Shown: positions 4,648 through 31,115 of the stretch, in pieces
Layout of the letters: every line of letters begins with the position of its first letter
Position numbering within the stretch: position 1 is the stretch's first letter
NCBI GenBank assembly: GCA_013002345.1
Contig: JABDKH010000007.1
Coordinates: 1 to 36,297, forward strand
From: Rhodothermales bacterium
Lineage (GTDB): Bacteria > Bacteroidota > Rhodothermia > Rhodothermales > JABDKH01
DNA: 36,297 nt
Direction: 5' to 3'
Made by a program: the position numbers and the translations under genes
Notes under the pieces: generated by a model
Told to the model about the DNA's origin: nothing
What the model saw: only the letters and a program-made list of their open reading frames with translations
Database searches by the model: none

Positions 4648-4778
4648 GATTCGACCTGAAGAAATGCGAAAAGAAGGAACAGCGCATAGGACAGTTGCCG
4701 GCAGGAGTCTGGGTGCTCTCGCGAAACTGAAGAGAACTGTTCGAGGCTCAGGTACGCAAAGCAATCTTGCATTCCTGA

Positions 4779-4816
4779 CGGGCAAAAGGAGTGAGTGCCC
4801 GAGAGATTTGTTCTCG
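4779..4816. promoter_or_regulatory. Two adjacent inverted repeats in the divergent promoter region
   Basis: CGGGCA (4779-4784) pairs with TGCCCG (4796-4801), and CGAGA (4800-4804) pairs with TCTCG (4812-4816). They sit 132-169 bases upstream of the T9SS cargo start and about 225-260 upstream of the operon start at 5040. They could be leader hairpins or operator half-sites; short stems like these also arise by chance. Confidence 0.25.
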
Positions 4817-4954
4817 AAATCCAGTGGGCGTAGTGCTGTCAAGTACTACGCGGTTCGGATTGCTGAAGACGCGAAAACTGCGATGCGTCATCTTGGTCCG
4901 CCGACCGACACCCTGTAGGTGGGTTTCCGTCGATAGAAATCGTCTTTTCCCGCT

Positions 4955-5039: not shown

Positions 5040-6788
5040 ATGCTGAACCTCGTGTGCGGCATCGCTGGCGGAAGGATGCGTGGGCGATCGGAATTCTCAA
5101 GCACGGCCAACTACATCTCCGTGGCCGCGGTTGCATTTCTGTTGCTTACGTCAGTCTCCTCAGCGACAGCCCAGCAGACTTCCAGTCCAAGTCCCTTCAA
5201 GCTGGAAGGTCAAGTCGGCCTTGCCGCCGAAGCTTACTCGTGCCGGGGCATTCCAGAGCGTCGAGCCCCAACCAGCTCTCAGCTGTTTGCCAACACGCAG
5301 TTCAACATCTTCGGTCTCAAGTCAGGCCTGAATCTCCTTTATTCGACCGACGATACTCGCGTGCGACAATCGATGAATCGACTCGCATTTACTGGCGAGT
5401 GGCGTTGGCTGCAGGTCTCCCTCGGAGACGTAAGCCCGATGCTCACGAAGTACAGCCTTAGCGGCGTGACGGTACGCGGCGGACTGCTCGAGCTAACGCC
5501 GGGGAAGTTCATGGTCACGCTCACGGGCGGACGAACCCAGCGGGCCGTGGCGTATTCCCAGTCAGCGTTTGGCCGGCCCTCCTTCGCACAGTGGCTGTAT
5601 GCGGCGAGAATTGGTGTGGGTTCGAGCAACGGAACACATTTTCACCTGATCGGCGTGCTGGCGCGCGAGCAAGTAGGGTCTCTCGACGAACCACAAGAAC
5701 TCGCTCCGGCCGAGAATTTTAGCGTAACGCCAGACTTCGGATTCTCACTGTTTCAGGGTCGATTCACGCTCCAGGCGAACGCTACGGCGGTCGTTTTTAC
5801 ACAGGACACTCGTACGGCCGAGGTCGACCTACCTGGATTGCCAGGACTCTCGTCGTCCCTGTTCCGGCTTCGGAGGGGCAGCCGCCTGAGTTTTGCCGGT
5901 GAGGTGGAGGCCCAGCTGCGACTGGACGGCTTCAGCTTCCGGGGTGGTTATGAGCGTGTAGAGCCAGGCTTTCAGACGCTCGGGGTGGGCTACGTCATCA
6001 GCGATCATCACGTTGTCACGGCCGCTCCGACCGTAACCATTTTGAATCGTCGCTTGACGCTGGGCGGCACCTTCTCTTGGAGCCGCAATAATCTGCTGGG
6101 CCAGCGGCTGGCCACTCTGACGAGAATGCAGTGGGGGACGAACATGCAGGCACGCATCGGTTCGAATCTTACGATAAGCGCCGGCTACCAACAGATGGAC
6201 AACGCCAATCGGCCGGTGGCGGACAGCCTGGCATCGCTGTTTCAGGACCAGCTGGTTCGAACGTTCATGGTCACGCCGAACCTCGTGATGAGAGCCGGAT
6301 CGCTGACGCACAGCCTTACGCTGTCGACCACATATCAGAAGTTCACTATCGCTCTGCTCCCGGTAGCCTCGAGTCCCCTGATCTCGCCGAACTTCGACAA
6401 CGTCAATTCGGCGCTCACGTATTCGCTCACGGCAAACTCCGGGCTGACCTTCAGTCTCTCGGGCACCTACCTGCGCAGCAACACCGGAGCGACGGACCTG
6501 GACGCTGCCGGTGTCACTCTGGGCTCTGGCGTCCCTTTCTTTCAGCGCAAGCTCCGCGTGAACGTTAGCGCCGGCTGGTCCCAGAATTGGAGCAGCCTGG
6601 CGTCTGCTGTCACGCCGGCCGGCAGCACCGGCTCGACGCAATGGATGATGACCCTGACTTCGTCGCTTCAGGTCACCCGTCGCGACGCGATCCGGCTCAA
6701 CTTGCGAGGACTCAATAGCGACCTCAACGGAGCGTCAGGCAACTTCAAAGAGCTTCAGGCCACGCTCCGCTACGATCACAGATTTTGA
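5040..6788 (+). CDS. Outer-membrane beta-barrel protein of the giant-protein operon
   Basis: A 582-residue exported protein of no family I can name. The ATG at 5040 has GGAGG seven bases upstream. A rather long n-region leads into a hydrophobic stretch (YISVAAVAFLLLTSVSSATAQQ) with cleavage near residue 40. The rest is a run of alternating polar/hydrophobic strands with glycine- and serine-rich turns and almost no helix, and it ends in Phe (YDHRF), as Bam-inserted barrels do. It opens a four-gene operon, with 21 bases to the ATG of the giant gene. It could be the export pore or anchor for the giant protein; that role is inferred from order alone. A simple porin is the main alternative. Confidence 0.72.
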   Translation: MLNLVCGIAGGRMRGRSEFSSTANYISVAAVAFLLLTSVSSATAQQTSSPSPFKLEGQVGLAAEAYSCRGIPERRAPTSSQLFANTQFNIFGLKSGLNLLYSTDDTRVRQSMNRLAFTGEWRWLQVSLGDVSPMLTKYSLSGVTVRGGLLELTPGKFMVTLTGGRTQRAVAYSQSAFGRPSFAQWLYAARIGVGSSNGTHFHLIGVLAREQVGSLDEPQELAPAENFSVTPDFGFSLFQGRFTLQANATAVVFTQDTRTAEVDLPGLPGLSSSLFRLRRGSRLSFAGEVEAQLRLDGFSFRGGYERVEPGFQTLGVGYVISDHHVVTAAPTVTILNRRLTLGGTFSWSRNNLLGQRLATLTRMQWGTNMQARIGSNLTISAGYQQMDNANRPVADSLASLFQDQLVRTFMVTPNLVMRAGSLTHSLTLSTTYQKFTIALLPVASSPLISPNFDNVNSALTYSLTANSGLTFSLSGTYLRSNTGATDLDAAGVTLGSGVPFFQRKLRVNVSAGWSQNWSSLASAVTPAGSTGSTQWMMTLTSSLQVTRRDAIRLNLRGLNSDLNGASGNFKELQATLRYDHRF

Positions 6789-6809
6789 CTTTGACGCGTG
6801 GATATCGTC

Positions 6810-9800
6810 ATGAATAGGCTTCGATCCATCCGCATCCTGCCCGTCTTCCTCGTTCTCCTGCTTGCCGCGGCCCTGCCCCAAGGGGTCGCACCTACCTACG
6901 CACAGGGAACTGCCCAGGCCATCGTCTCGGGAATTCCGCCCATCCTGCAGTCTCCATTCGTAGTCGACTTCGAGCAGGACTACCAGCAGCGGCGATTCCA
7001 GATGCAGTTCATCTACACCGGCCAGCAACCGGCTTCGTTCCGTTTTGTCGCGAGCCTTACGAAGGAGGGGCAGCAGCTGTTCAGTGTAACTTCCGAGCCG
7101 ACCTACTTCGAGCCGGGCACTTATCTGTACACGCACCTTTCGGACAACCCCTCGATATCGTTCTCCGAAGGATTCGATGATCTGGTTGATCAGCTGAGTG
7201 GTCGCATCAAGCGCCAGGTTATCGAAAGCGGCGCCTTCCCCGAGGGGTTCTACACGCTTCGTCTGGAGCCGGTCGCAGCTGACGCCTCCACGTTTGTTAC
7301 CGGAGTTCCGGGCACTGCGACCTTCACGGTCATGTATCCGGAGCCGCCCAGGCTGCTGTCGGTGGCCGATCAGTCGAATCTCAACACGCTGCATCCGAGC
7401 TTCGCCTGGACGCCGGTGATCGCGCCACCGGGGACGACGGTCGACTACGACGTGCTCATCACTGAGGTGCTTGCCAATCAAACGCCGCTTCAGGCGCTGC
7501 TCGGCAACAGAGCACATGCGCAGGTCGATATCACGGGACAGACCACGTTCGCATACATCGCAAACCAGTTGCCTCTCGAAGCCGGGAAGACCTACGTCTG
7601 GCAGGTGGCGGCTACCGCGGAGCTCGCGGGGCGCGTTCTGCCACTCAAGGATGACGGTCGAAGCGAGATCTGGACCTTCACCGTGGGCGCAGCACCGGGT
7701 CTGGTGGCGGAGGCGCCCTCGTACGTCTCGGACGGTACCGGCGAGGACCTCGACTACGTCAATTCGGTGACCTCTCTTTCCGCGAACTGGGGGCCTGTCA
7801 CTGGCGCCTCGTCCTATTCGTACGCGATCGGCTCATCGTCCGGCGGGACGGATGTCCTGAACTGGACGGACGCCGGTCAGCAGACGCAGGCGACGAGGTC
7901 CGGGCTGAGTTTAACACACAAGGTCAAGTACTTCGTTTCGGTGCGGGCCAACAGTACCGGAGGAGAGAGCGGGCAGATCGTCACCTCCGACGGCGTCGTT
8001 GCCGATACATCGCGGCCAACGTCCTCAGTCGAGATTGCCGCACTGAAGAACAAGGTCGGGCATCCATTTCTGAATGACGCCAACTTTCAAGTCACATGGT
8101 CCGGCTGGGATAACGCATCGCCAGTAACGCACTACGAGATCCAGTACAAGCATGGAGCAGATCTCGTCTGGACTACCTGGATGGCGAAGACGGATCAGCA
8201 GTCGGCGACATTCCCGAGCGCGTTACGCGGGGGCGACGGAAAGTATCGATTCCGCAGTCGCGCATGGGACGCGGCTGGGAATGAGAAGACACTCAAAGAT
8301 ATTGTCGAAGCCGAGGTCACGATTGACACGGCGACGCCATCCTCGGAGATAGCCAAGCTGGAGCCACAACAGGCGTCCGGGAGCTTCCTTGTTTCCTGGG
8401 CAGGAACGGATGCAACGTCCGGCGTCGAGAGCTACGACATTGAGTATCAGGAAGACGGCGGCACATGGAAGAGCTGGCTGTCGGCTGTGCCCGCCGCTTC
8501 AACTTCGAACCAGTTCCAGGGTACGGCCGGGATCGCCTACGGCTTCCGAATCGCCGCTCGAGACTCGGCTGGCAATGTTGAGGCATTTCCGCAGGTGGCA
8601 GATGCCTCGACTACGACCCTTGGTTCGACGATCGCCCTGACCGCGTCGGCCACGCCGGCCCTCGCGAATTATTACTACGACTGGAATGAAGACGACCAAA
8701 CATTGTCCCACTCCTGTTCGCACTCACTCAGTTCGAACGTGGATTCTTGCCCGGTCGTGAAGGTGCTGTTCGCCGCACCATCCGGAGTCTCGATGAAGGT
8801 GGATCAGGTCAGCCTTACCTGGTCCGACGAAAGTGGACAACAGGTCGCTATTGAGGCATTTTCCAACCTGTTTGTGGGGTCAATACCGCCCGTTCTCAAG
8901 AGTGGTCAATCCGGGACCATCGACCTTGCCCTTGCTCCCGTCGGGTCTTTCTTCGACAAGGTCGTGAAGGATGCCGACGCAGCCTTCGACAAGACCCTCA
9001 AGTGGACTCCGATAACCCACAACGTCACGGCGGTTCTGCGTGGTAATTACATGGGCAGCGACCAGGTGCCGCATTCGCTGAGTTCCAATTCTGTCGCCAT
9101 CAAGGTAGTGTACCGTCCGATCGCCCCGCCGATGTATACGGTCACGGTGACGGCGACTCCGTCAGCCATCTCATACAGGCCGGACAAACTGACGAACGAC
9201 GTCGACGTCAAGCTCTCGTTGGTAGGAATTCAGGGCGACGAGCTGACACTCGACAAGGTCGTGAATCGCTGGTACGACAGCACCAAGAATCTCTTTGACG
9301 AGCTCTCGAATTCGATTACACCGCTGGTCCTGAAAGACACTCCGCCCGCAGGCCCCGCGGCGTTCATGGAGGTAACTCGGAAGTTGGGGCTCACACTGTC
9401 CGAGTCGAGCTTTAAGAAGGCTCTCGGCGGGCAATCCACTGCCACCTACACGGTACACGTGGAATATCAGGGTAAGGATCAACACGGTAGCCCGGTCTCG
9501 TTCTCAACGGAGACGCCGATCACGGTGCAGTTCTTCGCTGACGCACCGAAGTTGCTCGTATCGTTCTCTCCGAGCAGCATCGTTTTCAGTCCTGCCAAGC
9601 TCCAGCACCCCGTAGACATTTCGTACAGTCTGGCGAGCCCGGTAAGTACCTCCGTGCAGGTTGAGTCCGTAACAAACTACTGGTACGAAGAGGACGACAC
9701 ACTATTTGATACTGGTACCGCAGTCGTTACACCCTTCACTGTACAATCGGGCCAGACGGTTACGCGAACCATGGCCTACTCGTGGTCTGCGTCGAGTTTG

Positions 9801-12800
9801 CAGAAGGCCCTCGCAGGAAAGAGCAATTCGCTTCACACGGTAAAGCTTGAGGCAAACGCCAAGGATGCTGACCAGAATACCGTTATAGGGACAACCGTCG
9901 AACCCCTCACGGTCTACTCGCAAAAGAGCGACGTATCCGTCGACGTGGCGTTCAGTCCGACAACGGTCACCTACACTCCGGATCAGCTTAGCAATCAGGT
10001 GTCTGTAACCTTCACGCTCACCAGCCAATCTGGCAAAAGTGTGACACTTGACAAGGTGACGAACCGGTGGTTCTCGGAAGACGGCAGCCTTCACTGGTCA
10101 GATTCGGCAGTCCTCTCGTCTCCGCGACAGCTTACGACGGCCGCCAGCCTGTCGGTTCACGACACGTTCGGGTTCCCACTTTCTCAGTTCAAACAAGCTC
10201 TGGGAGGAAAGAATCAGGCCACCTACACGGCTGAAATCACCTATTCGGGTACCGACTCCGACGGCATACCCATCAAGGCAGTGACGACAAAGCCGCTTAC
10301 CGCACTGTTCACGGCGTCATCGGCGAAGCTTCTAGCCACGGTCACTCCCGGCAAGTACGTGTTCGACAAGGACAACCTCCAGCGCAAGTGGACGGCGAAG
10401 CTCGACTACAAGAGCGACGTTGCACTCGATGTGAACAGTGCCGAGGTAACCTGGTACGACATCGGCGGAAAGCAGGTCAGCAAAGACAAGGTGGACCTGC
10501 TTCAGACCTACAGCTTCTCGGCTCCGGGTAGTTCGAACACGTTTTCGCTCGATCACACAATCACCGACTACGAGCGTACACTGGCATTGAATCGACCGGG
10601 ATCGGGATGGATGACGACACCCAGCGTCGGAAAGTACAAGGAGGAGATTTTCAAACTGAGGTTCGAGTTTTCGGGAACCGATGCGGTGGGCCGATCCATC
10701 AAGGCGACGTCGAACGAGGTTGAGGCCACATTGCGCGAGACGGCCTACCCGCTCGAGGTGACGGCGAGTCCATCATCGATCTCAACATCAGACAGTCCGG
10801 TCGATCTGGATATCACGATCAACTCCGACGTGAACTCGGTCGTAACCTTAGTCTCACGCACATACCTGCTGAAGAAAGGTACCGATCTCGTTCCGGCAAT
10901 AGGCATGGAGCCTTTCGGTGGGATGGGAAAGCCGGAGACGGCGCAGCCGGTGGTGCAATATGGTTCTGAGGGTGGTGCCACGCAGACTATCGCTGCAAAA
11001 GGGCTCTGGAAAGACAAGATCAGTATCCCGCTCAACACGTCCTACTTGCTCGGATCGTCGGACAAGGTTCAGGTCTCAGCCGAGGTCATTTACAAGGGCA
11101 CTGATGCGGCCGGCAAAGACGTGGAAGGTCGAGTCTTCATTCCGATCGAGGTGAAGAAGCCGGGACAGATCGATGACACGGAGGGTCTCGTAGCATCCGC
11201 CGGGTACTACGAACTGATTCCCAAGGTGGCGTTCGTACAGGCACTGCAGGATCTCTCCATAGTAACGACGTCGGGCGCCAATCGTGTCCTCAATGGTGCC
11301 GTACGTCTGGTCTTGATCCCGGCGCCGTTCGACTCGACCAGGCTTGCTGTCGATGCCACCAACTTGACCTTCGCCCCGGTCGCCGGAAAAACGGACCAGT
11401 GGACCATCAAGGGCGGATCGCTGTCGGAGGAGGGCACCCAGCTTAAGCCGGACCTGTTCCGATTCTACAAAGACGTCGTGCGGGTGAACAAGATCAGCTA
11501 CAATCACGCCCGCACGAAACGGATGCAGATCGACAAAGCGGAGGCCAGGATACCGGTTCTAGAGAAGTCGATCTTCTTGACAAACCTCCTCATTGACAAA
11601 GACGGTCTCCACATTGAGTCTGGTGAGGCTGAGGTTTCCGGTTTCGGCTGGACGTTCCGAATCACGGACATCAAGCAGCAATCAGGGTCGACGGGCAGCC
11701 TGTTGGCGCTGACGGCAGGGATTCGCATGGCCGGTAAGCCGGTGTCCGCCGAGTTCACCCAGACGACGCTCACCATTAAAGAGTCGCAGGGCAAGAAATC
11801 GGTGAGCATGAACGTCAAGCCGACCAACCCCTTCAGGTTTATCCCGAACACTGACTACCTGAACCTGACGTCGATGTACTTCGACGAGAAGACGGGCGAT
11901 GACTGGGTGCTGAAGGTCGGAGTGGAATCAAAGGATCTTCCACTGATGAGCAAACTGGGTCCGCTGAACGGGACACTGACGTATGATCGATCGGGAAAGC
12001 TTGCAGGCTTGCTCGAGCTCATTCCGCGCGAGACCGTGCCCGGTACGCCGCCGACTGACAAGTCGTTTGTCGAGATCGGGAAGCTGGCCAAGATCGACCT
12101 GACGTACGTAGGGCTGCAGCTGGCGGGCAAGGAAGTTATCACGATCCAGAACGCGAAGCCGGACACCTCCTGGGAGTTCGATACGTCGCAGAGCTACATC
12201 GGAATGGCCGCCGACCTGTATCTGCCTATGGTGGGAGATCCGAACAACCGCATCGCCATCGGTTCGGTGTCGTCGACGTCGGTGAGTCCGGGGATTCAGG
12301 TCAATTTCGATGGCAACGTCACGACTAAGACCATCAGCGTGGCGGCCGGCAAGAAGCTCGACCTGGGTCCACTGTATCTCAAACTGACCGCGCTAACATT
12401 AAAGCCCTATCCGTTCGAGATGGGAATCTCGGGAGGAATCGGGGTTGACGCTGCCGGAATTGTGGACGGCGAGATCGATGTCGCAGGATTGAAGGTTGAT
12501 CAGGATGGCGACTTCACGAATTTCAGTGACGTCGTGTCGGGGGGGCAACTGTCGATTCTGAAAGCAGTCACGATCGGCCTCAAGGATGTTGCCTACAAGA
12601 ACACACCGTCTACCATCCAATTCCAGGACAAGGTCGATAATGCAAAGAAGGACGTCAGCCTGACCGTTGACAGCTATTTCCAATTGACCGGTGCGACACT
12701 GACGCTTACCGGATGCGGCGGTGGCTTCGACAACCTGCTGGTATACGAGAAGGATGGGAACACGAGCTTTGTACTCAAGGGTGCAAAGGTCAACGTCAAG

Positions 12801-15800
12801 AACCAGATCGATCTCAATGTCGACTTCTCGTACATCAATGACTCAGCATCCAACACTCAGGCGCTCAGTGCAGGCGGCAATGCCAAGATCGCGAAGAAGT
12901 ACAGCGCCGGCGTGTACGGTGCGTTGGGTACGCGCAGTGGAGAATCCTACTGGGGATTCTACGTGGGCGTCGCAGGTCTCCAGATTCCGGTCGGACCCGG
13001 CATAAACCTCGAGGAGGTCGGCGGCGGCTTCTTCTGGAATCCAACGCTGAGCGACATCGATGCAGTGAAGAATGCAGCCGGCTTCAAGGACCCGAAGTTG
13101 GCGGCTCACATCGTCGCGATGAAGCCCACAGCGACAGCACCACTTACATTCGCCGCCTTTCTCAATGGCGGGGTTTCGATTGGAGCCAACGAGCTCTTCA
13201 AGGGGCGCGGGCTGCTCACGGTCACAGGCAACAGCGCCAAGCTCAACGTCGAGGCCGAGGTTTTGGCCGCGACCGTGAAAGGTAAAGGCTACCTGGAAGT
13301 CAGCTGGAACCCGTGGTACGTGGAGGGCAACTTCAAAGTCATCCTCGATATCCCGCTCATAGACTGCGAGGACCAGCTCACGTTTTACGCATACTCCGAC
13401 AAGGCGTGGGGCATCACGGGCAAGGTGCAGGTCGGCGTCCTCTCGTTCGTTACGACTACCGCCGAGTTCTATGCTGGAAACGACGGCTTCATGTTCGATC
13501 TGACGGTCAAGAAGGGCATCGACATCTTCATCATCTCGGGCGGGATAGAGTTTGAGGTGATGGCATGGTGGCGCAAGGACGTGAGCTGGGGCGCCTATGC
13601 CGCGGGCAAGGCATACGGTGACCTCCTGGCTGGCTTGATCGGCGGAGAAGTGGGCATCGAAGGTGCCTTCATCGGCAGTCCGGAGATCGTAATCTTCATG
13701 GCCGGACACCTCAAGATCGAGATTCTCTGGCAGGATGTTTTCGACGGCCGCGTCTGGATATCGATGGGCGAAAATGGATTTGACAGCGGTACCGGAAAGA
13801 GCAGCAGGTACGACGACATCATCGCCGATGCGAAGAACACCGGCAAGAAGATGAAGTCGGACATGGAGAAGCTGGCGGAAGATCTTAAGAATGCACAGAA
13901 CTCTCTTTTGTCACTGAGTAACAAACAGTTATCAGATGCAGGTAATGCATTGGTTGAGCTAATCGAAATCAAGGGCTTCGACCAGCTGATAAAGAACGAA
14001 TATCAGAAGGATCTCAATGCGGTGGCCTCGAGTGCGAAGGCCACCTTCAACAACGCGTATGCGGTCATCTTCAGTCCGCAGTCGCCAAAGCTTGGAAGTC
14101 TTGACGTCAGTCTGTCTTCGACCGAAACGCAGATTGATGCAACGCTGAATAGTCTCAAGAGCAAAGAGGCTGACGTCCGGAGTCTGCTGTTGTCATTCGA
14201 GGATGTGTTGACGGGTGATCTGCCGACGGTGCAGAATCTTGGAACATACTCGAATCCGGTCGGCCAACTGAGCTATCAGACGGTGACGCTCACGGACACA
14301 AACGGCGTGACGATGACCAAGACGGTGAAGGCAGGCTACGGGTTTGACACCAAGACCGCCCAGGATCTTGACAGCGGAGTCAAGAAGGAACTGAAGAGCG
14401 CCCTCGCGTACCGTCAGAAGTTGATGCAGATGACACAGCAGCTTGGCACCAAGCTGAACAGTGTCGATCAACTGCTATCGGGTTCCGGGAAATCTGTGAA
14501 CACGCTGGTGAACGACTATGGCCAGACCTCGCAGATGATTGGCAATCACACTACGCAGCGTCTTGACTACTTCGACGAGAGGGTCAAGCTGTACTCCAAG
14601 CAGTGGCTTGATCTTTCGACTCTACAATCCCAGATTCAAGCGGGCATTGCGAAGGATCTGTCCGATGCCGGGACCAACGCCAAGCTCAGGGCACAGACTC
14701 GCAACAACCTCGTCAACAAGCTCCTTACGCTCAGCAATCAGGCCACGAGGAAGTTTCCGGACCAGCACGAGAACTGGGCGGCGCTTGCCGATACACTGGG
14801 GCGGTACATCTGGTACGATATCCCGCTGGCGGGTTTTGACGCCGTCACGAAGGGATCGGGAGCCGCTCGCGAGAAGTTTGTGGCAGACTTCCAGAACACG
14901 AACAACGCGTTTCAGGCGAACTGGAGCCTGGCAACTCTGACAGCCGACAAGGTCTACAGCCGAAAAGCGAGGCTGTACACTTTGCTCTATGATCTCCTCG
15001 ATCAGTTGTCGATCGAAGCCGGCACGCGGAAGGAGACGCCTGCATGGGATGGAGAACTGGTAGTGGGTGTGATCGCACTGGACGGTCTCACGACGGGGAC
15101 CCAGTCCGGTGGCGATACGCAGGCGACAGCCATCGGGCCGGCGGGAGCGCAGCAGCCAATCGCAGCGCCCGGAGCTGTCATCGCTACGTCGGACTGGACA
15201 AAGGGGTGGGACTTTGAGAAAGAGCGGCTGAACGTCAAGAAGATGCTCCAGGTACCGCAGATCATTGCTTTCTCGGGGCAGGTCGTCAGCGACAAGACTC
15301 CGGCCTACGCGAAGCTGTCGCTGACCTGGAATGCAACTCACCCCATGAGTATGGCGGAATACAGCCTTGATATTCCGGACTACTCGAAGCCCGTGAAGAT
15401 GGCGCCGCAGGCCCCCACGCAGCAGATCGATCCAAATCCGATCGACCCGCGAACGCGCGTCGATGCACAACTTCCGGGGGCCGTTCAGCCTGGGATGATA
15501 CTGGTGCAGGACGTAGTGGGAATGCAGGGGACGACACAAATGCAGACGCCGACACAGTCACCGTCACTTGACCCGACGCAGGCGCCCGGAGCTGCTCCGA
15601 CGCAACCCGGTTTCTTGCCGATCGCCGGCGGCGGTCCGGTGAGTTTTGGGCCCTCGACGGTTCATGCGTGGCGCTCTCTGGCTGGTCGGACGAGTACCAC
15701 GATACCGTTCCTGCTGGGTGTGCACGAACCCGGGACGTACGAGGTCTGGCTGCGCGCACGTGGCGCCGGTGGACTGGCGCTGCAGCGCCTTGCGACTATC

Positions 15801-16529
15801 AATGTGCAGTACGCGTTTTCTGGTTCACCGGATGGTGCAGACTTCGGCGCCCAGACCAAGAAGGATGCTCTGTCCAGTGCCGACACGACTCCGCCGACGA
15901 CCCCTCTTGTACATGATGGCGGCGCCACAACCAAGAACAGAAATCTCCTCTACGTCACCTGGACGGCCACCGACTACGAGTCTGGAATTCAGGAGTATCA
16001 GTATCGAGTGGTGACCAAGGCGGCGGGTCAATCGACACCGGTCACGAGCTGGTTTTCGACCGGCGGGCAGACCGAGATCAACATCAAATTCGAAGAGCCG
16101 ATGAAGCCGGCCGTCATCTACTACGTTCAGGTGAAGGCGAAGAATGGAGCGGGAGCGTGGAGTGGCGACGGTATCTCGGACGGGATCCAGCTCTCGGACC
16201 CGACTCCGCCCACGGCGCCGGCCATCCGGACGCCCAGGCTGGTATCAGACACTCTGACCGTCGCATGGTCATCCGCCCGTGATCCCGAGTCTCAGGTGGT
16301 TGGCTATCGCTATGCGATCGGCTCCAGGCCGCAAGACACGAACATGCTGGACTGGACCTACACTCAAGACACGGGGTTCGTGATCGACATAAATACGCTC
16401 AGTGAGTCCGCGGGCAAGACGAAAGACGCTACGACCATCTACGTGTCTGTGTGCGCGGTGAACGGAATAGGAGTTGACAGCCCGATTGCTATGGCTCAGA
16501 CCGCCCCGCAACAGCAAACGAAGCAATAG
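6810..16529 (+). CDS. Giant secreted multidomain protein (about 3239 residues), TANFOR/FN3-type surface protein
   Basis: ATG 6810 gives a standard signal peptide (MNRLRSIRIL to TYAQ, about 31 residues); an in-frame GTG at 6798 adds four residues, and neither start has a good ribosome site. Order of parts: N-terminal beta domain 36-175; a domain at 176-294 with VDYDVLITEVLANQTPLQAL and KTYVWQVAAT, which I associate from memory with the TANFOR-like domain of large Bacteroidota surface proteins; three FN3-like domains at 300-600; a Cys-containing beta domain at about 610-770; about five tandem beta modules of roughly 130 residues at 776-1453; an unassigned Gly-rich beta region at 1466-2327; a helical/coiled-coil region at 2336-2737; a Pro/Thr/Gln-rich linker around 2862-2937; and a C-terminal beta domain plus two FN3 domains to 3239. 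There is no T9SS sorting domain, LPxTG-like motif or C-terminal membrane helix, so its passage across the outer membrane is unexplained. Likely role: adhesin or structural fibre. Confidence 0.82.
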   Translation: MNRLRSIRILPVFLVLLLAAALPQGVAPTYAQGTAQAIVSGIPPILQSPFVVDFEQDYQQRRFQMQFIYTGQQPASFRFVASLTKEGQQLFSVTSEPTYFEPGTYLYTHLSDNPSISFSEGFDDLVDQLSGRIKRQVIESGAFPEGFYTLRLEPVAADASTFVTGVPGTATFTVMYPEPPRLLSVADQSNLNTLHPSFAWTPVIAPPGTTVDYDVLITEVLANQTPLQALLGNRAHAQVDITGQTTFAYIANQLPLEAGKTYVWQVAATAELAGRVLPLKDDGRSEIWTFTVGAAPGLVAEAPSYVSDGTGEDLDYVNSVTSLSANWGPVTGASSYSYAIGSSSGGTDVLNWTDAGQQTQATRSGLSLTHKVKYFVSVRANSTGGESGQIVTSDGVVADTSRPTSSVEIAALKNKVGHPFLNDANFQVTWSGWDNASPVTHYEIQYKHGADLVWTTWMAKTDQQSATFPSALRGGDGKYRFRSRAWDAAGNEKTLKDIVEAEVTIDTATPSSEIAKLEPQQASGSFLVSWAGTDATSGVESYDIEYQEDGGTWKSWLSAVPAASTSNQFQGTAGIAYGFRIAARDSAGNVEAFPQVADASTTTLGSTIALTASATPALANYYYDWNEDDQTLSHSCSHSLSSNVDSCPVVKVLFAAPSGVSMKVDQVSLTWSDESGQQVAIEAFSNLFVGSIPPVLKSGQSGTIDLALAPVGSFFDKVVKDADAAFDKTLKWTPITHNVTAVLRGNYMGSDQVPHSLSSNSVAIKVVYRPIAPPMYTVTVTATPSAISYRPDKLTNDVDVKLSLVGIQGDELTLDKVVNRWYDSTKNLFDELSNSITPLVLKDTPPAGPAAFMEVTRKLGLTLSESSFKKALGGQSTATYTVHVEYQGKDQHGSPVSFSTETPITVQFFADAPKLLVSFSPSSIVFSPAKLQHPVDISYSLASPVSTSVQVESVTNYWYEEDDTLFDTGTAVVTPFTVQSGQTVTRTMAYSWSASSLQKALAGKSNSLHTVKLEANAKDADQNTVIGTTVEPLTVYSQKSDVSVDVAFSPTTVTYTPDQLSNQVSVTFTLTSQSGKSVTLDKVTNRWFSEDGSLHWSDSAVLSSPRQLTTAASLSVHDTFGFPLSQFKQALGGKNQATYTAEITYSGTDSDGIPIKAVTTKPLTALFTASSAKLLATVTPGKYVFDKDNLQRKWTAKLDYKSDVALDVNSAEVTWYDIGGKQVSKDKVDLLQTYSFSAPGSSNTFSLDHTITDYERTLALNRPGSGWMTTPSVGKYKEEIFKLRFEFSGTDAVGRSIKATSNEVEATLRETAYPLEVTASPSSISTSDSPVDLDITINSDVNSVVTLVSRTYLLKKGTDLVPAIGMEPFGGMGKPETAQPVVQYGSEGGATQTIAAKGLWKDKISIPLNTSYLLGSSDKVQVSAEVIYKGTDAAGKDVEGRVFIPIEVKKPGQIDDTEGLVASAGYYELIPKVAFVQALQDLSIVTTSGANRVLNGAVRLVLIPAPFDSTRLAVDATNLTFAPVAGKTDQWTIKGGSLSEEGTQLKPDLFRFYKDVVRVNKISYNHARTKRMQIDKAEARIPVLEKSIFLTNLLIDKDGLHIESGEAEVSGFGWTFRITDIKQQSGSTGSLLALTAGIRMAGKPVSAEFTQTTLTIKESQGKKSVSMNVKPTNPFRFIPNTDYLNLTSMYFDEKTGDDWVLKVGVESKDLPLMSKLGPLNGTLTYDRSGKLAGLLELIPRETVPGTPPTDKSFVEIGKLAKIDLTYVGLQLAGKEVITIQNAKPDTSWEFDTSQSYIGMAADLYLPMVGDPNNRIAIGSVSSTSVSPGIQVNFDGNVTTKTISVAAGKKLDLGPLYLKLTALTLKPYPFEMGISGGIGVDAAGIVDGEIDVAGLKVDQDGDFTNFSDVVSGGQLSILKAVTIGLKDVAYKNTPSTIQFQDKVDNAKKDVSLTVDSYFQLTGATLTLTGCGGGFDNLLVYEKDGNTSFVLKGAKVNVKNQIDLNVDFSYINDSASNTQALSAGGNAKIAKKYSAGVYGALGTRSGESYWGFYVGVAGLQIPVGPGINLEEVGGGFFWNPTLSDIDAVKNAAGFKDPKLAAHIVAMKPTATAPLTFAAFLNGGVSIGANELFKGRGLLTVTGNSAKLNVEAEVLAATVKGKGYLEVSWNPWYVEGNFKVILDIPLIDCEDQLTFYAYSDKAWGITGKVQVGVLSFVTTTAEFYAGNDGFMFDLTVKKGIDIFIISGGIEFEVMAWWRKDVSWGAYAAGKAYGDLLAGLIGGEVGIEGAFIGSPEIVIFMAGHLKIEILWQDVFDGRVWISMGENGFDSGTGKSSRYDDIIADAKNTGKKMKSDMEKLAEDLKNAQNSLLSLSNKQLSDAGNALVELIEIKGFDQLIKNEYQKDLNAVASSAKATFNNAYAVIFSPQSPKLGSLDVSLSSTETQIDATLNSLKSKEADVRSLLLSFEDVLTGDLPTVQNLGTYSNPVGQLSYQTVTLTDTNGVTMTKTVKAGYGFDTKTAQDLDSGVKKELKSALAYRQKLMQMTQQLGTKLNSVDQLLSGSGKSVNTLVNDYGQTSQMIGNHTTQRLDYFDERVKLYSKQWLDLSTLQSQIQAGIAKDLSDAGTNAKLRAQTRNNLVNKLLTLSNQATRKFPDQHENWAALADTLGRYIWYDIPLAGFDAVTKGSGAAREKFVADFQNTNNAFQANWSLATLTADKVYSRKARLYTLLYDLLDQLSIEAGTRKETPAWDGELVVGVIALDGLTTGTQSGGDTQATAIGPAGAQQPIAAPGAVIATSDWTKGWDFEKERLNVKKMLQVPQIIAFSGQVVSDKTPAYAKLSLTWNATHPMSMAEYSLDIPDYSKPVKMAPQAPTQQIDPNPIDPRTRVDAQLPGAVQPGMILVQDVVGMQGTTQMQTPTQSPSLDPTQAPGAAPTQPGFLPIAGGGPVSFGPSTVHAWRSLAGRTSTTIPFLLGVHEPGTYEVWLRARGAGGLALQRLATINVQYAFSGSPDGADFGAQTKKDALSSADTTPPTTPLVHDGGATTKNRNLLYVTWTATDYESGIQEYQYRVVTKAAGQSTPVTSWFSTGGQTEINIKFEEPMKPAVIYYVQVKAKNGAGAWSGDGISDGIQLSDPTPPTAPAIRTPRLVSDTLTVAWSSARDPESQVVGYRYAIGSRPQDTNMLDWTYTQDTGFVIDINTLSESAGKTKDATTIYVSVCAVNGIGVDSPIAMAQTAPQQQTKQ
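9136..11166 (+). repeat. Tandem about 130-residue beta modules inside the giant gene
   Basis: Protein-level repeats begin near 9136, 9547, 9934, 10324 and 10750. The first three share a TxTPSxISYxPDKLxN-like opening, a VTNRWYxEDxxLF-like middle, a SSFKKALGGK-like block and a closing xYxGxDxxGxPI strand. The fourth and fifth are more diverged. DNA identity is low, so this is old duplication. The modules probably form a rod of beta sandwiches. Confidence 0.7.
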
Positions 16530-16557
16530 GTGTGGCAGGCCTCAAGAGGATGTAAAC

Positions 16558-18591
16558 ATGAAACCCCGAAACAAGTTTGCGGGCCTCACGGCCGTGTTAC
16601 AGGTTGTCCTGCTGCTGTCGCTGACCTTACCTGTGAGGCTAGCAACGGAAGTGCGAGCGCAGGACCGCGCGCTTCCATTCCTTACCGCGGCAACGGATAC
16701 GCACGCATATGTGCTGCTGCTCGACGCTCCTCCGGGAATGCAGGGGTTCAACGTTTATCGGAAGGGGCAGGACGACGCGGAGCCATCTCTGCTGACGTTG
16801 GCGCCGGTCGTGGCCGTCGCGGACCCCGCAAGGGCTCGCACCCTCCTGGGGGACGATTTCGCGTGGATTGCGCGGGCTTTGCGAGTGCAGGACGCCTTCG
16901 AAGTTCTGAGTCGTCTCCGGACGGATCCAGGTGCTTCGATGGCGATCTCTCTCGCCAGTCTGCGGGCCGCCGCAGTTGCCGGACGACTGTTCGTCGATGA
17001 TACGGTGGAGCGAGGTCGAACATACGAATACCGAATCGAAATACTCGATCTCGACGGAGAGGTCTTGGCGTCAGGCTCTCGCGAGTTTGAAGTCCGAGAC
17101 CGGCATCCGGAGTCTGTGCCGAGTGGTGTGACCGCCGATGCCGGTGATGGCAACATCCGAGTTGCCTGGGAATTCCCGGACTATGCCGGCGATCCAGAAG
17201 ACGTTGTTGTTGGCTTTCACGTCTATCGCAGCGAGGCGGGTGGGTCATTCGAACGGTTGCAGCAAAACCCCATTCTCAGACAGGATGACTTGAGCTTCCG
17301 CGTGGACGCCAGCGTGCATAATACCCGACCCTATTCCTACTACGCCACAGCGGTCGACTTCATTGGGCGAGAAAGCGAGCCGTCTGCGATTGTCTCGGGT
17401 ACACCAGAGGACCTGACCCCGCCCTCGATCCCCAGTCAGGTGGAGGTGTTTTCGGAGGCCAATGCCTTGCTGGTTACGTGGCGGTTGAATCTGGAGCTTG
17501 ACGTGTCTCACTACGACGTCTACCGCAGTCTGGAACTGGAAGCAGGTTACGAGAAGATCAATAGTGAGCCGATCCCTGTTGACCAGGCGAGTTATCGCGA
17601 CGACGACGTGCACAGCGGACCGGTGTACCACTATGTCGTCACAGCCGTTGATCTGGCTGGCAATGAAAGCGAGTTCTCGAATGCAACAACCGGACGACCG
17701 TTGGATACGAAGGGTCCGGGTGCACCAGACGGTCTCACTGTGATGCTGCAGGGACACGAAGTGACGCTGAGTTGGATCGCACCGACTGACGCAGATCTGG
17801 AAGGGTTCTACGTGTACCGCAAGCGGGACGAACAAGATTTCCTGCCAATCACGCAACGACCGCTTCCGAAGGATAGCATTCGTGTGGTTGACGCGGGCTA
17901 CGATAACCGCGGGCTCCGACCGGGCAAGGCGTATACCTACGCCGTTGCCGCACTGGACCATGCACTCAACGAGAGCCCATACGCCGTGGTCGAGGTGGCG
18001 ATTCCCGACGACGAACCACCCACACCTCCTGTGGAAAGTTATGCTCGATCAACGGCGGAAGGCCTGGTTGATTTGCAGTGGCAACCGAGCCTGGCGCTCG
18101 ACGTGGTGGGTTATCGGGTGTATCGTAGTGAGAGTGAAGCGGATGTCGCAGCAGTGATCGAGGTAGACGGGTCCACGTTTGAGACGACCGATTCCACTGT
18201 CTCAAGAGGTCGAACATACGCGTACTATGTGGTGGCGGTCGACGCTGTTGGCAACGAGAGTTCTGGCACTGAACCGACCTCCGTAACGCCGCGGGATCTT
18301 TCTGCACCTCCGCCTCCCATGCGTGTCCAAGCAACGGCCGTTGCCGAAGGCGTCGCCGTGTCGTGGGAACACGTGCGGGTGCCGGACCTGGTCGGTTACA
18401 TGGTGTATCGATCGGATTCGCCGTACGGTGTTGCGGAGCAACTGACGTCGTCGCCGCTGGTCGAAACACATTTCCGTGATCCGCAGGGAATGAGTGGGCA
18501 ATACTACCGCGTTACATCACTCGACACGTCGGGTCATGAGAACAAGGGCGGGGAAGCGGTAGAAGCTCGCAGTGAGACCAGTTCGTTCTGA
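16558..18591 (+). CDS. Secreted protein with five FN3 domains and a helix-interrupted N-terminal domain
   Basis: A 678-residue protein. ATG 16558 has AGAGGA seven bases upstream and gives a signal peptide ending near VRAQ (residue 36); a longer in-frame start at 16474 would lie inside the giant gene. Five regular FN3 domains follow at about 184-285, 290-385, 390-487, 490-580 and 582-672, each with a GFHVYRS-like strand and an YxYYVVAVDxxGNES-like strand. The first domain (37-162) has the same opening strand (GFNVYRKG, 62-70) and closing strand (GRTYEYRIEI), but a helical segment of about 65 residues (79-145) is inserted between them. No sorting domain or membrane anchor is seen. It starts 28 bases after the giant gene and ends nine bases before the TPR gene, so it is very probably co-expressed. 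Likely a binding partner or accessory subunit of the giant protein. Confidence 0.82.
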   Translation: MKPRNKFAGLTAVLQVVLLLSLTLPVRLATEVRAQDRALPFLTAATDTHAYVLLLDAPPGMQGFNVYRKGQDDAEPSLLTLAPVVAVADPARARTLLGDDFAWIARALRVQDAFEVLSRLRTDPGASMAISLASLRAAAVAGRLFVDDTVERGRTYEYRIEILDLDGEVLASGSREFEVRDRHPESVPSGVTADAGDGNIRVAWEFPDYAGDPEDVVVGFHVYRSEAGGSFERLQQNPILRQDDLSFRVDASVHNTRPYSYYATAVDFIGRESEPSAIVSGTPEDLTPPSIPSQVEVFSEANALLVTWRLNLELDVSHYDVYRSLELEAGYEKINSEPIPVDQASYRDDDVHSGPVYHYVVTAVDLAGNESEFSNATTGRPLDTKGPGAPDGLTVMLQGHEVTLSWIAPTDADLEGFYVYRKRDEQDFLPITQRPLPKDSIRVVDAGYDNRGLRPGKAYTYAVAALDHALNESPYAVVEVAIPDDEPPTPPVESYARSTAEGLVDLQWQPSLALDVVGYRVYRSESEADVAAVIEVDGSTFETTDSTVSRGRTYAYYVVAVDAVGNESSGTEPTSVTPRDLSAPPPPMRVQATAVAEGVAVSWEHVRVPDLVGYMVYRSDSPYGVAEQLTSSPLVETHFRDPQGMSGQYYRVTSLDTSGHENKGGEAVEARSETSSF

Positions 18592-18600
18592 GTCCGTCGT

Positions 18601-20634
18601 ATGAGAATTGTCGCCGTAACTCTAACGCTGCTTGCCGTCTCGGCGATCAGTGCCTCAGCGCAAAATGCTTGGTCCCTGACGACGGAAGCTGCGGCGCAAT
18701 ACAGCGCTGGCAATTCGGCAGAGGCTGCTTCTCTACTGAAGCGTTCTCTCCGTTTTGACTCGACACTGATCGACACCTACCTGCTGCTCGGCCAAGTATA
18801 TCTGTACGCCGATTCGTTGGATCTGGCCGACTCGATTCTAAAGAGTGCCTTGCGACGCGAAAGGAGCGAGCCGAGAGTCTATCACCTTCTTGGGGCGATC
18901 GCATTTCAGCAAGGCCGCTACCGCAACAGCATCCAGCACTTCCAGCAGGTCCTGGGCCTGGAAGACAGTCCGACGGCGAGACAGTCGCTCTCGATGGCCC
19001 ACCTCAACCGAGGTGTGGAGCTCTTTCAGAACGGCCGGTCGCAGTCGTCGCTTCGGCACTTCGAGTCCGCTCTGGAGGCTGACCCGTCTAATCTGCAGGC
19101 GCATCGCAATGCAGTAGTCGTACTCTTGAAACTGGGCCGACGTGAAGCGGCGGAGCGAGAAGCGACGGAAGCTCTCCGAAAGAGTCGCGGCGACAAGGAA
19201 CTACTCGGCATGCTGGTGGAGTTGCGGCAGCAGCAGAAGGACTTTCCTGGCGCGCTGGTGGCCGCACAAGAGCTCTACAAGTATCACCCGAACGACATCG
19301 ATGTCGGATTGCATCTCGCTTATCTGTACCGGTTCAACAATAGGGGTGACGAATCTTTCGGTGTCTATGAGTCCCTTCTGCGCCTGGCACCGCGCGAGAG
19401 GCGGATCTACGATGATCTTGCTGATCTGCATGCTGTGAGGTCTCAGTACCTCGAAGCCATCGACGTTTATGAGCGTCTGGCTGTCTTGGCGCCACAAGAC
19501 GTGTCCGTCCGACAGGCCATCGCGGGTCTTTACGTCGAACTAGGGGACCACGCAGCTGCGAGGAAGGAATACCGACTTACCCTGGGTCATGGTCATTCGG
19601 ATATCGAAGTCTATCACCGGATCGCCGAGACCTACCTCGAAGAGGATCGCCTCGAAGAAGCTGCTGACACTTTTCGGGAGGCCATCGACAGGTTTCCTTC
19701 GGATCGATCATTGTATGTTGCGTTGGGTAGCGTGTGCGAGGACCTTGACGCGAGTAGGTCCGTCGAGGTCTACGAACAAATGATCGAGGGCAGGCCTTCC
19801 GATCCCCACCCTCACGTCCGCCTTGGGGTCATGTACGCGGGGGAGGACTCTACTCGGATACGCTCTGAACGTCATTTGCGGACGGCCATCGAACTGGGAT
19901 CGAAAGATCCCGCACCTCATCACGCTCTTGCCATTTCGGTAGCGCAACGGGGAGACACGACCAGAGCAATACTGTACGAACGCGAAGCGATAACGCGCGC
20001 GCTTCAACACGTACTTCGTTTTCGGAATCGCCTCGTTGGAGAGCTTGGCGGGGGACGCCAGATCCCTACGAGAACGCAACTAACAAACATCGAAGCTTCT
20101 GCGGACTCACTGGGTGCGTCTGAGAAGGTTCTTAGAGAGAGCCTGGATTCGTTCTTGCACCTGGGTTCCACGGATCAGCGGGAGGCCGATCTTCAAGAAC
20201 TCGCCGACACCTTCCCCGATGCGACCATACTAGTAGAGTATCAAGGCCGGCTTCTCGAGCAGGGAGGCTGGATCGACGAAGCCGAGGCGACATATATGCG
20301 CCTTCTTCAGGCGGAGCCGGGTAACAACTACGCTCAGTTCGCTTTGGCCCGAATTTGGGAGAAGGCTGGCTCTACGCAGAAGGCGCTACGCGCATATCAG
20401 AGAGCACTTGTCCTCGATGACGAAAACCAAGACGTCTACTACAGACTCATCGAGTTGTGTGAACTCGATGGTCGACTGGACAAGCTCGCAGACGAATGGC
20501 TGATTCAGGCTCGGCGCACACCAGGGAATCACGTTCTCCTTAGGAACCTGGCCAGGCTACTCGAGGAGGAGGATCGCACGTCTGATCTCGAGTACGTCCG
20601 TGCACTCATCGACAACCTTGAGCAGGCAGAGTAG
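18601..20634 (+). CDS. Exported tetratricopeptide-repeat protein
   Basis: A 677-residue protein with a short signal peptide (MRIVAVTLTLLAVSAISASAQ) followed almost entirely by TPR-type helical pairs; I count a dozen or more. Units such as DTYLLLGQVYLYADSLDLAD, RVYHLLGAIAFQQGRYRNSI and YAQFALARIWEKAGSTQKAL carry the usual small and aromatic TPR positions. The run weakens around residues 455-530, where a longer helical linker sits. It is nine bases after the FN3 gene with no clear ribosome site, suggesting translational coupling. As the last gene of the barrel-giant-FN3-TPR operon it is probably a periplasmic scaffold or chaperone for assembling the large proteins; the partner is inferred from gene order. 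Confidence 0.85.
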   Translation: MRIVAVTLTLLAVSAISASAQNAWSLTTEAAAQYSAGNSAEAASLLKRSLRFDSTLIDTYLLLGQVYLYADSLDLADSILKSALRRERSEPRVYHLLGAIAFQQGRYRNSIQHFQQVLGLEDSPTARQSLSMAHLNRGVELFQNGRSQSSLRHFESALEADPSNLQAHRNAVVVLLKLGRREAAEREATEALRKSRGDKELLGMLVELRQQQKDFPGALVAAQELYKYHPNDIDVGLHLAYLYRFNNRGDESFGVYESLLRLAPRERRIYDDLADLHAVRSQYLEAIDVYERLAVLAPQDVSVRQAIAGLYVELGDHAAARKEYRLTLGHGHSDIEVYHRIAETYLEEDRLEEAADTFREAIDRFPSDRSLYVALGSVCEDLDASRSVEVYEQMIEGRPSDPHPHVRLGVMYAGEDSTRIRSERHLRTAIELGSKDPAPHHALAISVAQRGDTTRAILYEREAITRALQHVLRFRNRLVGELGGGRQIPTRTQLTNIEASADSLGASEKVLRESLDSFLHLGSTDQREADLQELADTFPDATILVEYQGRLLEQGGWIDEAEATYMRLLQAEPGNNYAQFALARIWEKAGSTQKALRAYQRALVLDDENQDVYYRLIELCELDGRLDKLADEWLIQARRTPGNHVLLRNLARLLEEEDRTSDLEYVRALIDNLEQAE

Positions 20635-20668: not shown

Positions 20669-22288
20669 CTACTTGAGGAGGACCATCTTCTTCGTTTCCA
20701 GAAATTCGTTGGTCCTCAGTTGATAGAGATACACTCCACTCGACAGTGAACCGCTACCCACGCGCGAGCTCGCGCCGAACTCCACCTGGTAGTCACCCGC
20801 CAGATGGTCGCCGCTCACAACCTCACTGACCTCGTTGCCCAACAGGTCGAAGACACGTATCGTCGCGGGTCCGTTTCGTGAAACCGAGTATCGTATCGTG
20901 GTAGTGGGGTTGAATGGATTGGGTGCGTTCTGCATAAGTCTGAAGCTTCCGGGCACCTCCGACTTCGGCTCATCCGCGCCGACGAGCGACTGCTTCCAGT
21001 TCGAGGGCATCTCCAGCCGCATCATGAATAGATCTTCCTGACCGACGTTCATGCTCCAGTTCGATGCCCAGACGACGCTCTTCCCGTCATTAGATATGGT
21101 GGCATGCGTCTCTTCGTAATACGCATCAGTGGTTCCGTACACTTTCGCCAGGTAGTATCCCGCCGGATTCTGTCGATCGAGTTTCACCAGTATGATGCTG
21201 CGGTCTAGCCAGTTCTTCTCCGGCAGGCCGGGCTCGATGTAGGTCGATATCACACAGAAACCATCCGTGTTACACGACACATGCGCGCCGGACTGGAGTC
21301 CAAACTGAGAGGCGCTGTCGTAGTAAAGACGCACCAGCTCCATGCGAGCGTAGGCCGGATCCAGGGGAATCAAATCGATATTGTCCGTGGCCGTATTCTG
21401 ACCGACAACCACCTCCTTGTCATCTAGCGTCAGCGCCACATCCGAGTGCCCGATATTTCCGAGGCCGCGAAACTGCGTGAGTTCTCTGTTAGCGACGACC
21501 ATGCCATCCAGGTTGCCGCCGTTTCCAGGGTCACCGCCGATGATAACCCAGTTGCCAAGCGGAGACATCCCGACCCAGTCTACGTCAACCTCGTTGGGCT
21601 GTACCTCGTACAATCCGATGATGGTGTCGAGTTCGCGGTCCCACGTAAAGATGTACCTTTCGACGTAATCGACCACGTCGTCACCCTGCAGAAACAGCGC
21701 CCAGTAGCGCTTGTCCTTTGACGATTCCCCCTCGTCTCTCGTCGTAATCCGGAAGACATTCTCCTGTGCAATGATGGGGCCGAGAACGGGATCCTGCGAG
21801 AAGTCCTTGATGACCGTCGTCTCCTGTGTTGAGACATTGACGGTTCGTATCGAGAAGTCATAGAGTCCCCATATCACACCCGGATCTTGTGGGTCCCAGC
21901 GTGGCTCCTCGAGATCGATGGTCGCAATCAAATTGCCGGAAGAATTGTACGGATACGAATTTGTGCCGTAGATGCGCCAGCGCGTGTCAGGGTCGAGGAT
22001 GATCTTGCTCCCGTCGCTACTGAAGGGGTCGAAGCGAGCGTACTCGTGTCGGCTGCGGATGTTATTCCGTTCGGTAACGCAGGCGAGTTTCTGACCAAAG
22101 TGGTTGTCCGTGAATGTTTCTCCGGGCGCGGGCGCGCTGCGAGCTATCAGAAAGTGCGGCGGATTGGTTCCGTCGAGTAAATCGGGTACGGCGACAAACG
22201 GAACGTCAGCCGCAATGTCCTGTGAGAACGAGACGAAGTTGCCAAATGCAAAGGATAGCAACAAGACTATAGGCAGCGTGGTTTTCAT
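20669..22288 (-). CDS. Secreted beta-propeller-like protein with T9SS sorting domain
   Basis: A 539-residue protein. ATG 22288 has GGAGGT five bases upstream and gives a signal peptide (MKTTLPIVLLLSFAFG to SFSQ). Residues 30-430 are beta-rich with blade-like segments such as FDPFSSDGSKIIL, WVGMSPLGNWVIIGG and HATISNDGKSVVWASNWSM, resembling WD40/TolB-type or oligogalacturonate-lyase-type propellers. Two Cys residues in HVSCNTDGFCVIS may form a disulfide. The C-terminus is a Por sorting domain with NAPNPF at 454-459 and ends KKMVLLK. It is expected to be exported by T9SS and surface-bound or released. It lies 79 bases downstream of the GH114-like gene on the same strand, and the two may act on the same extracellular material. 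No catalytic residues could be assigned. Confidence 0.8.
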   Translation of the reverse strand: MKTTLPIVLLLSFAFGNFVSFSQDIAADVPFVAVPDLLDGTNPPHFLIARSAPAPGETFTDNHFGQKLACVTERNNIRSRHEYARFDPFSSDGSKIILDPDTRWRIYGTNSYPYNSSGNLIATIDLEEPRWDPQDPGVIWGLYDFSIRTVNVSTQETTVIKDFSQDPVLGPIIAQENVFRITTRDEGESSKDKRYWALFLQGDDVVDYVERYIFTWDRELDTIIGLYEVQPNEVDVDWVGMSPLGNWVIIGGDPGNGGNLDGMVVANRELTQFRGLGNIGHSDVALTLDDKEVVVGQNTATDNIDLIPLDPAYARMELVRLYYDSASQFGLQSGAHVSCNTDGFCVISTYIEPGLPEKNWLDRSIILVKLDRQNPAGYYLAKVYGTTDAYYEETHATISNDGKSVVWASNWSMNVGQEDLFMMRLEMPSNWKQSLVGADEPKSEVPGSFRLMQNAPNPFNPTTTIRYSVSRNGPATIRVFDLLGNEVSEVVSGDHLAGDYQVEFGASSRVGSGSLSSGVYLYQLRTNEFLETKKMVLLK

Positions 22289-22367
22289 CAAAGACCTCCT
22301 ATATTCGGGTCGCAACTGCGACTTTCATTGCCATGGAGCAAGGTGACAGCGCGGCAGCAGTCCATCC

Positions 22368-23441: not shown

Positions 23442-23496
23442 CGATTCGTCTCCGGGAGGTATAGACGGCTCGTGAAATGGACGGCGAACGTCACGG

Positions 23497-23514
23497 CCCG
23501 TCGGTTCCGACGGG
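23497..23514. promoter_or_regulatory. Perfect palindrome upstream of the GH114-like gene
   Basis: CCCGTCGG, two bases, then CCGACGGG: an 18-base perfect inverted repeat that extends by two more pairs with one bulge. It lies 56-73 bases upstream of the lipoprotein start, so it could be an operator or a leader hairpin. No regulator family is assigned. Confidence 0.4.
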
Positions 23515-23875
23515 ACCAGGTGACAGGATCCCACTGACGAGAACTGACGCCACGGAGTAACTCTGTCAGCCCACCGACACTTTCCGGACAGTTAGTGTCT
23601 CGGTTGTAGACATTCAAGCGGGATAAGCCGCGTAGAGGTGACGGGTGTTCTCCCGCGCGGCCAACGCCGGGCTAACTCGCAGAAGCACAGGTCCGCAGCC
23701 CGAAGACCCCGTCGGTCGCCAATGTCGCCACGGTCGCGGATGTGCCGGATTCAACATGAGCAGCGCGATAGAGGATCGCCTGCGAAAGTCCGGTCCCGGA
23801 ATGATGAATCGACAGGGTTACCCCGCCCAGAAGTACCTACATTATCCCACACGGTCGTTGACACAACTGCGCGTT

Positions 23876-31042: not shown

Positions 31043-31115
31043 CTGGATGTCGAAAAGAGTGATGTAGATAGCGGGGCGCATCGGGCTCAAGATCGGCTGC
31101 ATCCAGACGAAATGC

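Follow-up and report, generated by a model that had tools for sequence, protein, structure and literature searches.

We analysed a 36,297-nucleotide stretch of DNA from a Rhodothermales bacterium (GenBank assembly GCA_013002345.1, contig JABDKH010000007.1; hereafter the window), which forms the start of contig C7 in a genome of 4.1 Mb and 381 contigs that is approximately 97% complete. The window contains an operon of four same-strand genes, which encode a predicted outer-membrane barrel, a giant secreted protein, a protein with an array of fibronectin type III (FN3) domains and a tetratricopeptide repeat (TPR) protein (Table 1). An earlier reading of this DNA, made from its letters only (the sequence-only reading), had described this layout, and the intergenic gaps that it gave (21, 28 and 9 bases on the + strand) match the open reading frame (ORF) calls exactly. 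Pfam matches bear out the FN3 and TPR domains that it named: fn3 was found in the giant (E = 3e-12) and over four stretches of the third-gene protein (E = 1.7e-17), and TPR repeats were found in the fourth-gene protein (E = 1.5e-31). In agreement with the signal peptides assigned earlier, all four proteins carry, by eye, a typical signal sequence at the N-terminus; its end lies near ...AQ (ATAQ, TYAQ, VRAQ and SASAQ). A terminator scan revealed no terminator-like site within the three gaps of the operon, and promoter and terminator scans and the Bacteroidota -33/-7 pattern yielded nothing useful at the locus. ORF fusion and frameshifting were rejected as artefactual explanations, given that the ORFs of relatives are intact and of similar or larger size. 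A phage or defence origin of the operon was also rejected; PADLOC returned only a generic TPR match on the locus.

Table 1. Features of the four-gene operon and its flanks, in window positions. T9SS, type IX secretion system; CTD, C-terminal sorting domain; Ig, immunoglobulin; aa, amino acids.
Feature	Position	Strand	Description
Outer-membrane barrel gene	5040-6788	+	ATG start; 582 aa; C-terminal HRF
Giant secreted protein gene	6810-16529	+	ATG start; 3239 aa; without T9SS CTD
Conserved N-domain of the giant	6885-7697	+	Residues about 30-300; homologous to the TANFOR-like N-terminal region; barrel-linked part
FN3/Ig-like repeats of the giant	8085-8627	+	Residues about 430-610; Pfam
Conserved core of the giant	11235-14027	+	Residues about 1480-2410; long, strongly amphipathic predicted antiparallel beta-meander, then helices
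C-terminal Ig/FN3-like repeats of the giant	15945-16526	+	DPES/ESGI (DPESGI-type) motif
Secreted FN3-array protein gene	16558-18591	+	ATG start; 677 aa; third in the conserved triad
Secreted TPR protein gene	18601-20634	+	677 aa; fourth gene
Flanking gene with T9SS type A sorting domain	1675-4842	-	Lies outside the operon and diverges from it; CTD at 1684-1914
Flanking gene with T9SS type A sorting domain	20669-22315	-	Lies outside the operon and converges on it; CTD at 20681-20923

We then compared the locus with those of related genomes. A search of 80 relatives, in which most of the giant served as the query, recovered N-terminal homologues that were mostly 35-49% identical and lay in open frames of up to approximately 6,400 codons. 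Around these homologues, the barrel gene lay directly upstream and, given a long enough contig, the FN3 gene was usually directly downstream. A profile scan from a three-sequence barrel alignment reached only ten loci; the neighbourhoods of 40 further barrels, with extensions, were also examined. A gene encoding the conserved N-terminal domain of the giant (the N-domain) lies directly downstream of the barrel gene at 41 of 55 barrel loci, always with the barrel first and with a median gap of 16 nucleotides. The other 14 comprise loci in which the giant, FN3 and sometimes TPR genes precede the barrel (G319 (L118/L163), G086 (L123/L162), G350 (L128/L167) and T305), loci with an overlapping or nearby N-domain gene (L121, L134 and L139) and loci with no clear N-domain gene within the stretch of DNA covered (L114, L116, L122, L125, L131, L136 and L142).

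At most loci with sufficient flank, the FN3 gene comes directly after the giant, and this barrel-giant-FN3 triad is spread across many families of the phylum Bacteroidota. The full order with a TPR gene in fourth place was found in ten genomes: that of the window, G011 (Roseithermus sacchariphilus), G016, G225, G292, G318, G178, G367, G353 and G182. Fourth-slot TPR proteins are co-linear with that of the window (15-22% identity over 640-667 columns), and an IE.LHK.GR..EAR-like motif is found at the C-terminus of most of them. The fourth slot is taken by a T9SS-CTD protein in G012 and G024, and in G082 the TPR gene lies after one encoding a CTD protein. Because the arrangement recurs in so many genomes, it is more than chance: the four genes form a conserved unit. 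The sequence-only reading had asked whether the order was conserved across genera, and the homologues indeed proved to be linked rather than scattered. As a separate observation, the TPR gene at four Balneolaceae-type loci (L154, L155, L158 and L160) is followed by a small gene of approximately 183-190 aa, sigma-factor-like by eye, and then by a large protein (approximately 1,900 aa where complete).

Barrel and N-domain stay together even where the rest of the giant changes. Beyond the N-domain, the giants vary from less than 1,000 to approximately 6,400 aa, while the barrel pairing is kept. The divergences of barrel and N-domain also track each other (Mantel r 0.89, permutation maximum 0.245; species tree not controlled). 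The window's own genome encodes a second pair (L046, C126:1-8135), in which a barrel gene (529-2235) is followed by a 947-aa N-domain protein and then by a protein with He_PIG/cadherin repeats, truncated where the contig ends. The barrel and N-domain of this paralogue are 36% and 40% identical to those of the window, and both are closer to those of G012; the two own-genome pairs are therefore old. In G060, a free-standing 406-aa N-domain protein (L048:12416-13636) sits between a barrel and a T9SS-CTD protein, and a 3790-aa giant is found elsewhere in the cluster. A free N-domain that still adjoins a barrel is what would be expected if the N-domain is the partner of the barrel. Taken with the conserved unit, the most natural reading is that the barrel anchors or handles the giant, as had been supposed from the sequence.

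The first gene had been called an outer-membrane barrel by inference, and an AlphaFold2 model built with 14 homologues agrees with this, giving approximately 26 strands (predicted local distance difference test (pLDDT) 83, predicted template modelling score (pTM) 0.72). All 14 homologues end in Phe, the usual end of barrels inserted by the barrel-assembly machinery. The barrel profile matched 169 of 395 Bacteroidota genomes at E <= 1e-3 (approximately 67 at E <= 1e-70), and no Pfam or NCBIfam model matches the family. Neither Pfam nor the model shows a periplasmic POTRA or plug domain, the strands in the model following directly after a short low-confidence N-terminus; this makes an anchor or shuttle more likely than a free-standing exporter. 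A sequence search of the PDB with the barrel returned nothing, and BFVD returned generic porins only. The best fold match was MtrB (PDB 6r2q chain B; TM-score 0.50 over the query, 12% identity, root mean square deviation 12.8), which shares a wide barrel without a plug and which we take as a generic large-barrel match; other wide barrels, including ushers and LptD, were also among the matches. An MtrB-like electron conduit was rejected, as the fold match is weak and no CXXCH haem motif was seen in the four proteins.

Three further barrel observations can be recorded here. Some flavobacterial-type members of the family (L133:12408-14867 and L138:4986-7436) are approximately 820 aa long and carry an extra 250-270 or so C-terminal residues with no convincing Pfam match. 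A third, distant member of the family in the window's own genome (L142, C135:12000-30793; 680 aa, E ~1e-30) has a subtilase-domain protein a few genes upstream. The window also encodes a DUF5777 membrane-bound beta-barrel protein (29798-31102, - strand), whose Pfam family is distinct from the operon barrel, which matches none.

Given this pairing, we considered how the giant might reach the cell surface. The sequence-only reading had suggested that export may not depend on the T9SS. This is unsupported, and we do not favour it. The genome encodes SprA (C200, 2681 codons) and 109 sorting-domain loci, CTD genes lie on both flanks of the operon, and the two relatives mentioned above have a CTD protein in the fourth slot. 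SprA was also present in every barrel-positive genome sampled (169/169, compared with 135/226 barrel-negative genomes; p = 4e-27, phylogeny ignored). We do not offer this p value as strong evidence because it ignores phylogeny, and we regard the co-occurrence of barrel and T9SS as suggestive only and weak at genus level, since SprA is near-universal among genera.

We propose, with a probability of about one half, that the operon represents, in a Rhodothermia-type form, a surface-assembly locus of Bacteroidota whose barrel serves as the cognate anchor, at the surface, for a giant that has no sorting domain and is exported with the assistance of the T9SS. The conserved centre of such loci would be the barrel together with an N-domain giant. 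Judging from the signal sequences, Sec would take all four proteins into the periplasm, and the predicted fold and C-terminal Phe suggest that the barrel is inserted in the outer membrane. The giant would then reach the surface, most likely with T9SS assistance despite its missing sorting domain, and its N-domain would hold it there by docking on its cognate barrel; ordinary T9SS substrates are received and positioned by PorV or PorP/SprF barrels in much the same way. The amphipathic beta-meander and the Ig/FN3 stretches of the giant may extend outwards from the surface or rest on it. The FN3 protein is probably a partner that is co-exported and co-displayed with the giant, and the TPR protein may be a periplasmic assembly factor or a factor on the cell-wall side. 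Adhesion is the likely function of such an assembly.

This proposal has a precedent in part. In the T9SS, type B substrates have an established pairing with cognate barrels, the PorP/SprF shuttles, such as SprB with SprF, and some operons of Flavobacterium johnsoniae also hold a PorE homologue (PMC12618676). As in those systems, the window has the gene of a putative giant surface protein beside that of a cognate outer-membrane barrel. It differs from them in that its barrel, of approximately 26 strands, belongs to another family and is encoded upstream rather than downstream, in that the conserved partner is the N-domain rather than a C-terminal CTD, and in that its TPR protein has no OmpA-type domain in Pfam.

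Several results weigh against the proposed T9SS-assisted anchoring. As the sequence-only reading had also noted, none of the four operon proteins contains a T9SS sorting domain (TIGR04183 or TIGR04131) at E <= 0.1, and they therefore carry no known T9SS signal. The PorP/SprF model TIGR03519 matched neither the window barrel nor its 14 homologues, its single weak match in the genome being on another contig, and we found no sequence relation of the barrel to PorP/SprF or PorV. With 109 CTD loci in the genome, CTD neighbours are not rare, and SprA is present in 166 of the 171 genera sampled. Finally, the correlation between barrel and N-domain divergences takes no account of the species tree.

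The same missing sorting domain, together with the strict pairing of barrel and N-domain, would fit a barrel that is itself a dedicated, T9SS-independent exporter of the giant, in an unrecognised two-partner-like system where the TPR protein hands over the chain on the periplasmic side. The ushers and LptD among the fold matches of the barrel point the same way. We nevertheless consider such an exporter unlikely: no periplasmic domain, POTRA and plug included, is present in the barrel, the T9SS accompanies it in every barrel-positive genome, and CTD genes occur on both flanks and, in relatives, within the same operon. Compared with type V two-partner secretion and chaperone-usher systems, the operon likewise sets a giant or multidomain exoprotein beside a barrel, and ushers are among the fold matches; it differs in that no POTRA, two-partner secretion, plug or chaperone domain is present in the four window proteins.

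The giant has three regions that recur among relatives, namely the N-domain, the core and the C-terminal repeats, and the stretches between them vary freely. Self-BLAST detected no internal repeats above threshold. The core matches no Pfam family and has no sequence relative in the PDB. Its hydrophobic/polar strand alternation far exceeds that of shuffled sequences (2.86 versus 1.43) and also exceeds that of the barrel's own strands (1.90 versus 1.39 in shuffles), and Foldseek placed it near ushers, LptD and ApoB100. These properties raise an alternative in which the giant, instead of being an extended adhesin, acts as a structure of the envelope or for handling lipids, with its core shaped into a groove or a second giant barrel at the outer membrane. 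We judge this somewhat less probable than a dedicated exporter, as the core model is of low confidence (pLDDT 63, pTM 0.42), all the Foldseek TM-scores are below approximately 0.35, and the Pfam families without a match include AsmA/TamB and the lipid-transfer families.

The N-domain links the operon to a published class of proteins. TANFOR proteins of Bacteroidetes (TIGR02542) were proposed in 2020 to be polymorphic toxins, perhaps exported by the T9SS, and their neighbourhoods are enriched in FN3 and CTD genes (Jana, Salomon and Bosis, PMC7073777). A Rhodothermia N-domain profile retrieved TANFOR-like proteins at E values of 1e-15 to 1e-47, and hhalign aligned the N-domain with their N-terminal region over 258 columns (probability 99.8%, E = 1.8e-28), those proteins being themselves sub-threshold for TIGR02542. 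Against the curated cut-off of 67 bits, three of the four TANFOR-like relatives tested scored only 33-35 bits and the fourth scored 21; TIGR02542 had no match in the window's own genome, and none in the window N-domain even at E <= 10. For these reasons we do not call the operon TANFOR. Like TANFOR loci, it encodes a large secreted protein that has FN3 domains and whose N-terminal region is homologous to theirs; it also has FN3 and T9SS-CTD neighbours and a T9SS-positive genome, and the barrel adjoins several TANFOR-like genes (T303, T305 and T339). It differs in the size of its giant, 3239 aa compared with approximately 1,000-2,000 aa in the TANFOR-like proteins examined, and in the absence of a C-terminal toxin domain of the TANFOR type and of a downstream immunity gene, the next genes being FN3 and TPR. 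On sequence grounds, the operon is thus apparently a divergent relative of TANFOR loci rather than a TANFOR locus, and its giant a non-toxin variant. The earlier statement that no characterised system has this composition consequently holds in part: the giant is tied by its N-domain to a published class whose FN3 and CTD neighbours were known, but a conserved barrel partner and a TPR gene are not described in the TANFOR paper, which does not mention barrels (PMC7073777).

The homology of the N-domain and the role proposed for TANFOR proteins would also accommodate a contact-dependent polymorphic toxin with the barrel as its delivery partner, which we regard as improbable. In the last 500-600 residues, Pfam detected no toxin domain in the window giant, in nine proteins of the same kind (giants or N-domain proteins) or in ten other giants, and the only domain recognised at the C-terminus of the window giant is an FN3 repeat. 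Most Rhodothermia giants end in shared Ig/FN3-like repeats, not in variable modules, and no immunity-like small gene lies downstream. It is less credible still that the operon merely gathers unrelated secreted proteins in one transcription unit, such as co-regulated envelope genes: TPR and FN3 folds are generic, but the same order occurs in ten genomes, and in many families the triad recurs with a few bases between its genes.

Neither the barrel partner nor the quartet appears to have been described in the literature that we searched. Some of the largest Bacteroidota proteins carry no known T9SS export tag, and a barrel family without a Pfam or NCBIfam model is encoded beside the one domain common to such giants. 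Our more tentative suggestion is that the barrel/N-domain pair might be an undescribed outer-membrane delivery module that operates across Bacteroidota and displays giants of up to approximately 6,400 residues, either as a new class of T9SS shuttle that reads an N-terminal signal in place of a C-terminal one or as a free-standing translocator. With this pairing, a two-gene experiment can address the hitherto vague hypothesis that the T9SS may have TANFOR proteins among its substrates, and the pairing offers a route to annotate many barrels and giants now labelled 'hypothetical'.

Other genes surround the operon and its CTD-encoding neighbours. Near the start of the window, a single ORF (23-1540, + strand) encodes a fused transporter, whose first half resembles a glycine-betaine binding protein (OsmF-like) and whose second half resembles a choline/betaine ATP-binding cassette permease. 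Just past the second CTD gene lies a putative glycoside hydrolase of the GH114/TM1410 type (22368-23534, - strand), and the window ends within the start of a SusC/TonB-receptor-like gene (34719-36297, + strand).

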